A DNA stretch of 64,000 nucleotides from Geodermatophilus poikilotrophus (GTDB taxonomy: Bacteria > Actinomycetota > Actinomycetes > Mycobacteriales > Geodermatophilaceae), in assembly GCF_900111455.1 (NCBI RefSeq), contig NZ_FOIE01000004.1:372001-436000 (forward strand), written 5' to 3'. Under the pieces are notes generated by a model. That model made no database searches. It was not told the origin of the DNA and was given only the letters and a program-made list of their open reading frames with translations. This document shows positions 5,834 through 26,168 of this stretch, piece by piece. Made by a program: the position numbers and the translations under genes. Numbering within the stretch: the first letter of the stretch is position 1; every line of letters starts with the position of its first letter.

Positions 5834-6643
5834 CTAGGCGAAGAAGAAATAGCATTCAGACGTCGGGTACTTGATGAAGCGATGGACGTTGGGCTGCTCC
5901 GGGTCCGCAAACTCGTCCACCGCCTCCTGCGAGATGTCGATGCAGAAGTCTCGAACCATGTCAGGCTTGTTCTGCCATTCCACCAGGAGGGTCACCTGCA
6001 ACTTCCCCACCGTCAGTGCCGGAATGGGTTCGGTCGGGAGGAACCAGGCCATCGGTGTGACCGGCTCGGACCCGAACACCAGGATCGGCACAGGGTCCGA
6101 GACTCGCGTGATGAAGGCCGTCGAGAACTCGGCCTCGGGTTGGGTCAGGTCGACGACCTCGTGCCACGGGAGATGTGGCATGTCCTCGCCGCCTTCCTGG
6201 GGTTCGACCAGTACGGTCATGTCCAGGAGGACGGCGGGGCGTTCCGTTCGCTTCGTCGCGGTGAATGTTGGTTGTAGATACACATCCTGGACGCCGTCGC
6301 CGCCGGGAGCCGATATCCGCAGCACCTTCGGCATGGTCAGGTGCACATCGGCTTCGCTGTTCAACTGTGCGTAGTTCGCCACCGACAGGACGAGGGCCGC
6401 CACCGCCGTCGACGCCGAGATCCAGTTCGTGGCGACTTCCCACCTCCTGCGCCGACCGGTCGAAGCGCCTGTGGGCCGGTCCGTCGCACCCTCGTCTGGT
6501 TCCGTGCGACTTGCTCCGTCGACGTAGAGCCTCCACCCCTCAGGCGCTGGTCCCCAGCTCGGGTCCGGGATCCAGCCATGTGGCGGCAGCCAACCCTCGG
6601 GCGGTGTCGGCCAGTTCGGGGGCGGGTTGAAGACCCTGCTCAT
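5834..6643 (-). CDS. Hypothetical membrane-anchored protein with Trp/Pro-rich N-terminus
   Basis: 269 residues. The N-terminus (FNPPPNWPTPPEGW and then PDPSWGPAPEGW) is the Pro-Trp-rich motif found at the start of many actinobacterial membrane-anchored hypotheticals. One transmembrane helix (about residues 75-95) follows an Arg cluster; the rest is a likely extracytoplasmic beta-rich domain of unknown function. ATG at 6643 is chosen because GGAGG lies 5 bases upstream and the motif begins there. Composition is visibly less GC-rich than its neighbours and it ends in TAG, hinting at recent acquisition. Function unknown. Confidence 0.75.
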   Translation of the reverse strand: MSRVFNPPPNWPTPPEGWLPPHGWIPDPSWGPAPEGWRLYVDGASRTEPDEGATDRPTGASTGRRRRWEVATNWISASTAVAALVLSVANYAQLNSEADVHLTMPKVLRISAPGGDGVQDVYLQPTFTATKRTERPAVLLDMTVLVEPQEGGEDMPHLPWHEVVDLTQPEAEFSTAFITRVSDPVPILVFGSEPVTPMAWFLPTEPIPALTVGKLQVTLLVEWQNKPDMVRDFCIDISQEAVDEFADPEQPNVHRFIKYPTSECYFFFA

Positions 6644-6792
6644 CCGGCCCTCCGCTGTGACGAACTGTCCGGGCGCGATCTCTCTGTCAACGGCTCTCGT
6701 GGTCCGATCCCGGAGCCACAGGGCTCCGATCGCCACGGAGGACGTGTCTTGAGGAGGCACGCTGCCGCACCGCTGATACACCGCGGGCCACC

Positions 6793-6868
6793 TGCCCCGG
6801 CCACCGTGCTGGGCCTGCTGGCCGGGCTGGCGATGCCGGGCGTACCACCGCTGGGCGACGTCTTCGCG
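6793..6868 (+). pseudogene. comEC-like gene fragment
   Basis: Read in frame the sequence gives PATVLGLLAGLAMPGVPP, matching PATVLGLLAALAHPVVPP inside the intact comEC at about 9083-9140. A 20-base block at its start (CCCCGGCCACCGTGCTGGG plus flank) is identical in both places. The frame reaches TAG at 6869. This is too short to function and looks like a remnant of a second, diverged comEC copy left when the neighbouring hypothetical gene arrived. Confidence 0.6.
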
Positions 6869-6983
6869 TAGTCGGCTGCTGTGGAACCCACCGCCGCTCG
6901 GCCGCTCGATGTCCTCGGTGTCCACAGCGGCGGGGGCTGTCCACAGTCCTGCGGCGGCCCGCCCGGCGGGGGTCGCGGCTCCC

Positions 6984-6989
6984 TAGCGT
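6984..6989 (+). promoter_or_regulatory. -10 box of comEA
   Basis: TAGCGT lies 7 bases before the GTG start of comEA, with no ribosome binding site: a likely leaderless promoter for comEA-comEC. Confidence 0.5.
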
Positions 6990-6996
6990 CGCGCCG

Positions 6997-7838
6997 GTGC
7001 GCCTCTCCTCCCGTCGCAGCGACGACGCCGACCTGATCCGGCAACGGCTGCGGGTCCTGCTGGACGAGCGCCGTCCACCGGGCTGGGTCCCCGACTACGA
7101 GGCGTTCGACGCCGACGACGAGGCGCCCGACGCCGGAGCGGAGGAGGTCGCCGCCGCGGCGGCCGACGACGGGCTGCCCGCCGGCATCGGGCGGCACCGT
7201 GTTGCCGGCAGTGCCGTCCGGGTGGCCCCCGGGCGCCGCGCCGCGTGGTCGCTGTGGGTCGTCGGGCTGCTCGCGGCGCTCCTGGTGGTCGCGAGCACGT
7301 GGTCCGGCCGCCCGCAGGTGGAGCCCGCGCCGGTCGAACCGGCCCCCGCCGCGTTCCCGGCCGCGGAGAGCACCGCCGCGACGCCGCCGGCGGGGGTCAC
7401 GGCGGACCCCGCGGCCACGGTCGTCGTCTCGGTCGTGGGGTCGGTGGCCCGGCCCGGGCTGGTCACGCTGCCCGAGGGGGCCCGGGTCGCCGACGCGGTG
7501 ACGGCCGCCGGCGGGCTGCTGCCCGACGCCGACTCCGCCTCGGTCAACCTCGCCGCCGTCGTCTCCGACGGCCAGCAGGTGGCGGTCGGGGTGCCCGGCG
7601 CGGCGGCGGCCGGCGGAACCGTCGGCGGAACGGACGCTCCGTCGGGTGCTGGCCGGGTGGACCTCAACGCGGCCACGGCTGCCGACCTCGACGCGCTGCC
7701 GGGGATCGGGCCGGTCCTCGCCCAGCGGATCGTGGAGCACCGCGAGCGCAGCGGGCCCTTCCGCAGCGTGGAGCAGCTCGACGACGTCCCCGGGATCGGC
7801 CCGACCACCTACGCCGAGCTCGCCGAGCTGGTGACCGT

Positions 7839-21920: not shown

Positions 21921-22940
<1,020 letters not shown>

Positions 22941-22963: not shown

Positions 22964-23058
22964 GGAGGCGTCAGGGTGTCTGGTGGCCCCCGCGGCCTCT
23001 AAAGCCGACGTGGCCGAGCATCTCGGTCAGGCGGGTTCGATTCCCGTCCGCCTCCGCC
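22964..23058 (+). tRNA. selC: tRNA-Sec with anticodon CUA (reads UAG)
   Basis: Acceptor GGAGGCG (22964-22970) pairs with CGCCTCC (23049-23055); an eighth pair would be T-C, a mismatch. Discriminator is G (23056) as in all tRNA-Sec. The anticodon loop CTCTAAA (22997-23003) is closed by CGGC/GCCG and has CTA at 22999-23001, where E. coli SelC has TCA. A long variable arm GGCCGAG/CTCGGTC with loop CAT (23012-23028) and T-loop TTCGATT (23036-23042) confirm the type. CCA is not encoded. It would insert selenocysteine at UAG codons followed by a SECIS element. Confidence 0.92.
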
Positions 23059-23100: not shown

Positions 23101-24411
23101 ATGAGCGACGACCCGCGGCGGCAGGTGCCGCGCACCGACACGCTGCTGGCCGACCCGCAGCTGGCCGCCGCCGCCGACCGGCTGGGCCGCGACCTGGTCA
23201 AGGCCGCGGTCCAGGACGTCCAACAGCGGGTCCGCACCGGTGCGCTCGCCCCCGCCGACGCCGTGCCCGCCGTCCTGACCGCGCTGCCGACCACGGCGGG
23301 CAGCCTGCGCCCGGTGCTCAACGCGACCGGGGTCCTCGTGCACACCAACCTGGGCCGCGCGCCGCTGTCGCCGGCCGCGGTGGAGGCGGTCGTCGCCGCC
23401 AGCGGCACCACCGACGTCGAGCTCGACCTGACCACCGGCCGGCGCGGTCCGCGGGGGGAGGCGGCGCTGGCCGCGCTGGTCGACGCGGTCCCGGCCGCGG
23501 AGGCCGCGCTCGTGGTCAACAACTGCGCGGCGGCGCTGGCGCTGGTGGCCACCGCACTCGGCGGGGAGCTGGTCATCGCGCGCGGCGAACTGGTCGAGAT
23601 CGGCGACGGCTTCCGCATCCCCGAGCTGCTGGAGGCCACCGGCGCGCGACTGCGCGAGGTGGGGACGACCAACCGCGTCGCGCTCGAGGACTACCGGCGG
23701 GTGCTGGGTCCCGGCACGGGCGCGGTGCTCAAGGTGCACCCGTCGAACTTCGTCGTCCGCGGATTCACCCGGGCGGTGCCGGTGGCCGAGCTCGCCGCGG
23801 GGCTGGCCGGCAGCGGCGTCCCGCTGGTGGCCGACGTCGGCTCCGGGCTGCTGCGCCCGCACCCGGTGCTGCCCGACGAGCCGGACCTGCAGACCACCCT
23901 CGCCGACGGCGCGGACCTGGTGCTGGCCAGCGGCGACAAGCTGCTGGGCGGACCGCAGGCCGGGCTGGTGCTCGGCCGCGCCGACCTGGTGCAGCGGCTG
24001 CGGCGGCACCCGCTGTACCGCGCGTTCCGCGTGGACAAGACGACGCTCGCCGCTCTCGAGGCCACGCTGCGCGGTCCGCAGCCGCCGGTGCAGCGGATGC
24101 TCGCCGCCGACCTCGACGGCCTGCGCCGCCGCGCCGCCGCGCTGGCCGCCCGGCTCGCCGCCTCCGGGCTCGATGCGGTCGCGGTCGACTCGCAGGCCCG
24201 CGTCGGCGGGGGAGGGGCGCCGGAGCAGCCGCTGCCCAGCGCCGCCGTCTCGCTGCCCGCGGGGTTCGCGGTGCCGCTGCGCGCCGGCTCGCCACCCGTC
24301 GTGGGGTACCTGGCCGGCGACCGGACCCTGCTCGACCTGCGCAGCCTGCCGCCGGCGGACGACGAGGCGCTGGCCGCCGCGGTGCTGGAGGTGGCCCGCC
24401 GGTGGACGTGA
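23101..24411 (+). CDS. selA: L-seryl-tRNA(Sec) selenium transferase SelA
   Basis: PLP enzyme that converts Ser-tRNA-Sec to Sec-tRNA-Sec with selenophosphate. 436 residues, within family range. N-terminal tRNA-binding region, NATGVLVHTNLGRAPLS (about 78-94), and the PLP Schiff-base Lys in ASGDKLLGGPQAG (Lys about 280). The stop overlaps upstream in-frame GTG codons of selB, so the two are co-translated. Lies 43 bases downstream of the tRNA-Sec gene on the same strand. Confidence 0.97.
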   Translation: MSDDPRRQVPRTDTLLADPQLAAAADRLGRDLVKAAVQDVQQRVRTGALAPADAVPAVLTALPTTAGSLRPVLNATGVLVHTNLGRAPLSPAAVEAVVAASGTTDVELDLTTGRRGPRGEAALAALVDAVPAAEAALVVNNCAAALALVATALGGELVIARGELVEIGDGFRIPELLEATGARLREVGTTNRVALEDYRRVLGPGTGAVLKVHPSNFVVRGFTRAVPVAELAAGLAGSGVPLVADVGSGLLRPHPVLPDEPDLQTTLADGADLVLASGDKLLGGPQAGLVLGRADLVQRLRRHPLYRAFRVDKTTLAALEATLRGPQPPVQRMLAADLDGLRRRAAALAARLAASGLDAVAVDSQARVGGGGAPEQPLPSAAVSLPAGFAVPLRAGSPPVVGYLAGDRTLLDLRSLPPADDEALAAAVLEVARRWT

Positions 24412-24422
24412 CCGCTCCCGGC

Positions 24423-26168
24423 ATGGACGTCATCGCGACGGCCGGCCACGTCGACCACGGCAAGTCCACGCTGGTCCGCGCGCTCACCGGCATGGAGCCC
24501 GACCGGTGGGAGGAGGAGCGCCGCCGCGGCCTGACCATCGACCTCGGCTTCGCCTGGACGACGCTGCCCTCCGGGCGCCGGCTCGCGGTCGTCGACGTGC
24601 CCGGCCACGAGCGCTTCGTCGGCAACATGCTCGCCGGCGTCGGCTCGGTGCCCGCCGCGCTGGTCGTGGTCGCGGCGGACGACGGCTGGTCGGCGCAGAC
24701 CGCCGAGCACGTCGCCGTCCTCGACGCGCTCGGGGTGCGGCACGCGCTGCTCGCCGTCTCCAAGGCCGACCTCGCCGACCCCGGCCCGGTGCTCGCCGAC
24801 GTGCGCGAGCGGCTGGCCGCGACGTCGATGGGCGAGGTGCCCGGGGTGGCGGTCAGCGCCGCCACCGGCGCGGGCGTGCCGGACGTCGTCGCCGCGCTGG
24901 AGTCGCTGCTCGCCGGGCTGCCGGCACCGGATCGCGAGGCGCCGGTGCGGCTGTGGATCGACCGCGCCTTCCCGGTCAAGGGCGCCGGCACGGTGGTCAC
25001 CGGCACCCTCGCCGCCGGCCGCGTCGCCACCGGGGACCGGCTGCAGCTCGGCGACCGCGAGGTCGGCGTCCGCGGCGTGCACTCCCTGGGGCGGCCGGTC
25101 GAGCGGGCCGAGGCCACCGCGCGGGTGGCGCTGAACCTGCGCGGCACCTCCGTCGAGGAGCTGTCCCGCGGCGACGCGCTGCTCACGCCGGGGGCGTTCC
25201 GCTCGACCACCGAGCTCGACGCCACCCTGGTCCGCGCGCCGGAGGACCGGCTGCCCGCCGAGGTGGTCGTGCACGTCGGCTCGGCCGCGGTCGGCGCGCG
25301 GCTGCGCCCGCTGGAGGGGGCGGCGGTGCGGCTGCGGCTGACCACGCCGCTGCCGCTGCGGGTCGGCGACCGGCTGCTGCTGCGCGACCCCGGCGCCCGC
25401 CGGGTGCTGGGCGCCGATGTGCGGGACGTCGACCCGCCGGAGCTGCGCCGCCGCGGTGCGGCCCGCCGTCGCGCCGAGGAGCTGGCCGCCCAGCCCGCCG
25501 GCCCGGCCGGGGCCGCCGCCGAGCTGGCCCGTCGCCGGTTCGTCCGGGCCGCGGACTTCGCCGCGATGGGCTGGCCGGTGCCCGAGCACGCGACGGCCGT
25601 CGGGCCCTGGCTGCTGGCGCCGGGCCTGGTCGAGGAGCTGGCCGCGGCCCTGCCGGGGATCGTCGCCCGCTACCGGACGCTGCGCCCGCTGGAGGCCGGC
25701 CCGCCGGTGGCCGTCGCCCGGCGGGCCCTGGAGCTGCCCGACGACGAGCTGGTGCCGGCCGTCGTCCGCCCGCCGCTGGCCCTGCGGGACGGGCGCGTGG
25801 TCGTCGCGACGGCGGGCCTGCCCGCGCAGGTGCAGCAGGCCGTCGACGGCATCCGTGCCCGGCTGGCCGCCGACCCGTTCGCCGCGCCGGACGCCGAGGA
25901 GCTGCGCGCGGCCGGGCTGGGGCCGCGGGAGCTGGCCGCCGCCGCCCGCGACGGGCAGCTGGTGAAGATCGCCGACGGCGTCTACCTCGCGCCCGGGGTG
26001 GCCGAGCAGGCGCGGGCCCGGCTGACCGGCGTCCCCACGCCGTTCACGCTGAGCCAGGCCCGCGCGGCGTGGGGGACCAGCCGGCGGGTCGCCGTTCCGC
26101 TGATGGAGTGGCTGGACGCCCGCGGTGTCACCGAGCGGCTGCCCGACAACACCCGCCGGCTGCGCTGA
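24423..26168 (+). CDS. selB: selenocysteine-specific elongation factor SelB
   Basis: GTPase that carries Sec-tRNA-Sec to the ribosome and binds the SECIS hairpin. 581 residues from ATG 24423: GHVDHGKST (G1), RGLTIDLGFAW (G2), VDVPGHERF (G3), SKADL (G4), then EF-Tu-like domains II-III and C-terminal winged helices ending WGTSRRVAVPLMEWLDARG that bind SECIS. GTG codons at 24402 or 24408 are alternative starts overlapping selA. As the tRNA here has anticodon CUA, this SelB should act at UAG codons. Confidence 0.96.
   Translation: MDVIATAGHVDHGKSTLVRALTGMEPDRWEEERRRGLTIDLGFAWTTLPSGRRLAVVDVPGHERFVGNMLAGVGSVPAALVVVAADDGWSAQTAEHVAVLDALGVRHALLAVSKADLADPGPVLADVRERLAATSMGEVPGVAVSAATGAGVPDVVAALESLLAGLPAPDREAPVRLWIDRAFPVKGAGTVVTGTLAAGRVATGDRLQLGDREVGVRGVHSLGRPVERAEATARVALNLRGTSVEELSRGDALLTPGAFRSTTELDATLVRAPEDRLPAEVVVHVGSAAVGARLRPLEGAAVRLRLTTPLPLRVGDRLLLRDPGARRVLGADVRDVDPPELRRRGAARRRAEELAAQPAGPAGAAAELARRRFVRAADFAAMGWPVPEHATAVGPWLLAPGLVEELAAALPGIVARYRTLRPLEAGPPVAVARRALELPDDELVPAVVRPPLALRDGRVVVATAGLPAQVQQAVDGIRARLAADPFAAPDAEELRAAGLGPRELAAAARDGQLVKIADGVYLAPGVAEQARARLTGVPTPFTLSQARAAWGTSRRVAVPLMEWLDARGVTERLPDNTRRLR

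Follow-up and report, generated by a model that had tools for sequence, protein, structure and literature searches.

Which codon specifies selenocysteine (Sec) in Geodermatophilus poikilotrophus is a question raised by one tRNA gene. The gene lies between selD and selA in the 64,000-nucleotide stretch of DNA analyzed here (the window), and its anticodon is CUA. The answer developed below is that this bacterium very likely spells Sec as UAG in place of the usual UGA. From comparative sequence evidence, the cassette in the window is predicted, with high confidence, to insert Sec at UAG codons followed by a SECIS hairpin, after a single switch within the family.

All parts of a bacterial selenocysteine cassette are present in the window, in the order selD (−), tRNA-Sec(CUA), selA (+), selB (+). 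selD, encoding selenide water dikinase (selenophosphate synthase), occupies 21921..22940 on the minus strand (NCBIfam TIGR00476, 382.6 bits, cut-off 125). On the plus strand, selA at 23101..24411 encodes seryl-tRNA(Sec) selenium transferase (TIGR00474, 412.1 bits, cut-off 267.9), while selB at 24408..26168 encodes the Sec-specific elongation factor (TIGR00475, 278.1 bits, cut-off 242.25), its start overlapping the end of selA by 4 bases. The calls were made at NCBIfam equivalog cut-offs, and with all three full-length genes above them, the preliminary description of selD, selA and selB as intact holds.

The tRNA gene itself (selC) is located at 22964..23058 on the plus strand, and the coordinates and CUA anticodon first given for it were exact. 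ARAGORN reports a tRNA at 22964–23058 (+) with anticodon cta, and the Rfam tRNA-Sec covariance model (RF01852) matches 22964–23055 over its full length (1–91 of 91), scoring 65.1 bits (gathering score 47; E = 5.5e-11). The structural features initially noted are likewise present: the long variable arm is retained in the Rfam alignment, the anticodon loop (CTCTAAA in the DNA) appears there as CUCUAAA opposite the model’s CUUCAAA, and both G73 and the T-loop can be recognized in the sequence. Besides tRNA-Sec, no Rfam family reaches its own gathering score at 22964–23058. Since the CUA tRNA pattern recurs in 76 further genomes of the family, the anticodon is no sequencing error. The name printed by ARAGORN is tRNA-Pyl, a label that the program also gives to the CUA tRNAs of relatives (L140, L152–L156), and this mislabel of CUA tRNA-Sec may sit in automatic annotation.

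A second tRNA-Sec with UCA, raised in the preliminary description as contrary evidence, was looked for and not found in the assembly. The assembly comprises 4,828,156 bases in 18 contigs and is 99.87% complete, and an Rfam search of all 18 contigs finds no other tRNA-Sec, leaving a small chance that one is hidden in a gap between contigs. Next in rank is a tRNA-Ser (anticodon TGA; 48.2 bits), followed by tRNAs for Ser, Tyr, Leu, Ser, Thr and Met. One SelB exceeds its cut-off in the genome (269.1 bits). A second, below-cut-off match to the SelB model (205.1 bits) is probably EF-Tu.

If UAG encodes Sec, genes with in-frame TAG at Sec positions should be found. Three such genes, each with one TAG at its Sec site, lie elsewhere in the genome, contrary to the possibility, also raised at the outset, that no gene would have an internal TAG there. 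They are formate dehydrogenase alpha (FdhA) on contig 10 (TAG at base 163,495; NQARI-U-HSATV), a 175-residue UGSC protein on contig 7 (ALAD-U-GSCTSC) and a UGSC fusion on contig 9 (locus L139, 3705–5117; VGD-U-GSCSSW). In both UGSC genes, the TAG is the U position of the UGSC motif. The contig 9 frame joins a pyridine-nucleotide-disulphide reductase domain (Pyr_redox_2, 71.6 bits) to the UGSC domain (121 bits). The reductase domain is thioredoxin-reductase-like, and its fusion to a UGSC domain hints at the source of electrons for UGSC proteins. In the same genome, no in-frame stop interrupts the four AhpC/TSA matches or the single AhpD-like match. Internal stops were searched for in these four families (FdhA, UGSC, AhpC/TSA and AhpD-like), so the selenoproteome could include further members.

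Each of the three TAGs is followed by a hairpin with a 7-bp stem and an RGUNU loop starting 18 nt downstream (loops GGTCT, AGTGT and AGTCT), bearing out the early expectation of formate dehydrogenase or other selenoprotein genes with an in-frame TAG and a hairpin just beyond it. By the same test, such hairpins are found at 14 of the 63,940 positions examined per strand in the window, and none follows any of its 235 TAG triplets. For FdhA, the hairpin was compared among relatives in a set of 35 TAG and 10 TGA rows, from which 3 TGC rows and 1 misaligned row (G060) had been dropped. Its seven pairs are standard in 243/245 cells of the TAG rows and 64/70 of the TGA rows, as against 70–155/245 and 25–49/70 in a control with one side shifted by 1–3 bases. 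Bases 14 and 26 lie at two silent codon positions and occur as G-U, G-C, C-G and U-A, paired in all 24 distinct sequences; none of 10,000 shuffles matched this pairing, with the shuffling disregarding relatedness. The FdhA hairpin thus appears to covary at silent positions in relatives. As it is common to TAG and TGA genes, the codon changed while the SECIS stayed.

From the known bacterial pathway, SerRS would load serine onto tRNA-Sec, and SelA would then make Sec-tRNA using selenophosphate from SelD. SelB would bind both Sec-tRNA and the hairpin and bring Sec to UAG, competing there with RF1 (where the codon is UGA, the competitor is RF2). Mukai and colleagues reportedly carried out 75Se and mass-spectrometry work on UAG-Sec in 2016. 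Elsewhere in the genome, UAG is very likely still an ordinary stop. Rough ORF calling, covering 68% of the window’s bases, gives 42 ORFs, with 37 ending in TGA, 5 in TAG and none in TAA. Because five ORFs end in TAG, some of which look doubtful, and no TAG in the window has a hairpin, UAG appears still to stop ordinary genes. Speculatively, the rarity of UAG as a stop in a GC-rich genome could have eased the change.

How widely the trait is shared was surveyed in 146 genomes, 86 from the family of the window’s bacterium and 60 from other families of the order. The CUA pattern occurs in 77 of the 86 and in 0 of the 60, so the switch is common to most of the family. Three genera (g5, g8 and g10) account for the nine family genomes that lack it. 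Seven of the nine carry a UCA tRNA-Sec; for G046 (82% complete) and G054 (74% complete), none is established among the Rfam matches listed, which extend down to E = 8.2e-9. Second Rfam matches of ~50 bits, seen in many genomes including G054, are taken as tRNA-Ser by analogy with the window’s genome. The CUA tRNAs also share a second mark. All 78 CUA matches from the 77 genomes have G at base 39, and in the extracted loci, where some genomes are counted repeatedly, the 31–39 pair is C-G in 43/43 CUA tRNA-Sec and U-A in 40/40 UCA tRNA-Sec; the two exceptions to the rule are non-Sec tRNAs (L217 and L220). G081 carries an additional CUA tRNA, probably a contaminant, with a variable arm resembling that of genus g4.

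Sec codons follow the anticodon. Among the 77 CUA genomes, 75 have FdhA with one TAG in an otherwise open frame (85 readable copies). No FdhA match was obtained in G084 (CUA, 81% complete). In G060 (CUA), the FdhA frame on contig 12 is broken at ~6500–7400 of locus L141, with the Sec codon and hairpin stretch missing, and a second copy on contig 4 is split in the same region. Outside the family, 38 of 41 FdhA copies have one TGA (36 genomes) and three have no stop. For UGSC proteins, 49 genomes yield 82 copies. A single TAG is found in 56, every one from a CUA genome, and a single TGA in 6, none of them from the family; the remaining 20 have no stop (14 in CUA genomes, 3 in UCA genera and 3 outside the family). 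In these stop counts, the position of the stop was verified residue by residue for the FdhA Sec-site rows and the genes of the window’s own genome. Since 20 of 82 UGSC copies and three non-family FdhA copies have no stop, Sec is not required in these families.

The UCA genera g5, g8 and g10 have no FdhA match in any of their nine genomes at E = 1e-50. Their three UGSC copies are without a stop, as are the AhpC/TSA matches of the four genomes searched, and in G034, the inspected stretches beside the sel genes hold no clear selenoprotein. Seven UCA-genus genomes (G034, G041, G048, G052, G032, G039 and G029) therefore have a tRNA-Sec but no selenoprotein in the families searched.

Two other meanings of the CUA tRNA and its in-frame TAGs were weighed against Sec insertion. 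One is that the tRNA in the window is in fact tRNA-Pyl or an ordinary amber suppressor, with UAG read as pyrrolysine or some other amino acid. The name assigned by ARAGORN speaks for this, in line with the cta anticodon, but the short variable arm and structure of tRNA-Pyl are not those of the window tRNA, which has a long arm and matches the tRNA-Sec model end to end. Its position between selD and selA, and the in-frame TAGs at Sec positions with SECIS-like hairpins, point the same way, and we regard this reading as extremely improbable. Slightly less remote, yet still very improbable, is that the system is decaying, with TAGs that arose as nonsense mutations and a tRNA that survives as a relic. 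The FdhA copy of G060, broken at its Sec site, and the several UGSC copies without a Sec codon would fit such decay. A relic system is hard to reconcile, however, with 85 FdhA copies from 75 CUA genomes that are open save for one TAG, with hairpin covariation at silent positions, or with full-length selA, selB and selD in the window. Sec insertion at UAG remains the preferred reading.

The origin of the CUA system was approached with a maximum-likelihood SelA tree of 40 chosen proteins, representing 20 of the 77 CUA genomes, seven of the nine other family genomes and 13 from outside the family. The CUA rows form one clade (100/100, and present in 100% of 200 bootstrap trees), and genus g5, a UCA genus of the same family, is its neighbor (95/94). 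The most plausible history is one event within the family, in which the anticodon changed from UCA to CUA and the 31–39 pair from U-A to C-G, while the Sec codons of the FdhA and UGSC genes went from TGA to TAG with the SECIS unchanged. Alternatively, the CUA system could have arisen more than once or moved between genera by transfer. The Sec trait can travel, since complete sel plus formate dehydrogenase clusters of usual annotation are located on plasmids, one typed as conjugative in Arthrobacter sp. YA7-1 and one typed as non-mobilizable in Tsukamurella tyrosinosolvens (L280 and L281), and the tree is of a single gene with 20 of 77 CUA genomes sampled. Against this stand the fully supported CUA clade with its adjacent UCA genus, G39 in 78 of 78 CUA matches and the C-G pair in 43 of 43, which make multiple origins or transfer unlikely in comparison with one inherited switch.

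A phylum sample of 396 genomes contains the CUA pattern within a tRNA solely in the window’s own genome; a second pattern match was rejected, as neither ARAGORN nor Rfam sees a tRNA there. Genome contigs were scanned with an exact pattern in which base 39 is not G, a choice that excludes the family’s own tRNAs and puts G39 or other arm spacings outside its reach. Its one match, a tRNA of an Erysipelotrichaceae MAG, was set aside as a general tRNA rather than tRNA-Sec by Rfam. A scan of viral contigs gave three matches (GC 0.36–0.47), of which two are general tRNAs and one yielded no tRNA. The long-armed CUA tRNAs on two viral contigs and in the MAG (L217, L219 and L220), all general tRNAs by Rfam, are possibly amber suppressors.

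The use of UAG for Sec in the Geodermatophilaceae is already in print. According to the accessible text of PMC5330540, which cites Mukai et al. 2016 (Angew Chem; also cited in the corresponding text of PMC10778597), Geodermatophilus and Blastococcus have a tRNA-Sec with CUA and use UAG in formate dehydrogenase and UGSC-motif selenoproteins. The preliminary description pointed to a 2016 demonstration in these two genera, and because PMC5330540 reports UAG-Sec in both, its placing of this locus as a further case, not the first, is right. As far as that text goes, the CUA tRNA-Sec, the UAG-containing gene families and the taxonomic family are alike and nothing basic is different; added here are the sel cluster and three UAG genes of a further genome, together with a survey of 146 relatives. 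The same text describes a UAG-coded AhpC selenoprotein in Blastococcus saxobsidens DD2, which has the codon and tRNA type of the window but no counterpart among the four AhpC/TSA matches of the window’s genome, all without an in-frame stop. In Aeromonas salmonicida, the available portions of PMC10778597 and PMC5756416 describe a tRNA-Sec with a cysteine-codon anticodon. There, too, the tRNA-Sec anticodon changed along with the Sec codon, although the codon is the cysteine codon UGU rather than a stop codon. The UGA-Sec systems in other families of the order share the genes and FdhA SECIS hairpin of the window but differ in their UCA anticodon and TGA codon.

The window itself is thus of a known kind, and the newer element lies outside it, in a member of the same genus (G005; 100% complete, 1% contamination). 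This genome has a CUA tRNA beside selA, selB and selD, and UAG in FdhA and UGSC. Its contig 17 (69,133 bases) also encodes a tRNA-Sec with UCA (81.8 bits), a pairing seen in one genome of the 77. The opposite strand carries, some 300 bases from the UCA tRNA, an AhpD-like gene (28.2 bits to Pfam CMD, cut-off 23) with an in-frame TGA, the two together spanning 1169–2154 of locus L137. The TGA occurs in RCFY-U-MESH, in a column that is Cys in 29/29 aligned homologs. Downstream of it, at 16 nt, is a hairpin of 6 bp whose loop reads AGTTT. The nearest relatives of the gene, found in 6 of the 396 phylum-sample genomes, all have TGA in that column; two of the six pass the hairpin test and one has a tRNA-Sec(UCA) within 1.5 kb. 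Either the test is strict or the SECIS of those relatives differ.

It is possible, and not far short of an even call, that the G005 cell uses two Sec codons, the CUA/UAG system of the family plus an imported UCA/UGA AhpD-like module. The first 6 kb of contig 17 have a GC content of 0.64, versus 0.72–0.77 for the rest, and differ in tetramers as well; a transposase-associated domain adjoins the module. The rest of the contig resembles the other loci of G005 and the window’s genome (r 0.89–0.95), though at 6–20 kb the fit to other genera is almost as good. The module thus looks imported into the chromosome. The contig may nevertheless be chimeric, because the module is at a contig end and linked through a stretch rich in transposase-like ORFs. 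A plasmid search with the module returned five records, each covering ≤9% of the query, at the tRNA; the two inspected are ordinary sel-fdh clusters. AhpD homologs on plasmids (68 records) are all <60% identical to that of G005.

Were two codons in use, the module’s UGA, at the catalytic CxxU position and with its own hairpin, would be served by SelA and SelB of the host, whose genome has one SelB above cut-off. The tRNA alone would set codon choice, with SelB reading the hairpin only, and a lineage that had given up UGA-Sec could take it in again from outside, piece by piece. A 2026 review (PMC13188914) lists AhpD-like, CMD-like (CxxU) and UGSC selenoproteins; its accessible text has no match to “Geodermatophil”, and the mentions of UAG seen there do not concern natural UAG-Sec. 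No report of UAG and UGA both serving for Sec in one bacterium was found in the literature at abstract level, with few subscription papers included.

It is rare to find a codon reassignment whose old and new states both survive in a single family. Across UCA and CUA genomes, one can align the tRNA and the codons of two selenoprotein families, along with a SECIS that has not changed, and the family is thereby a natural test of whether SelB and the SECIS are indifferent to the recoded codon. If G005 does use both UAG and UGA, it would show how a cell could move between two codes without a gap, and would offer a host for two-codon selenocysteine engineering.
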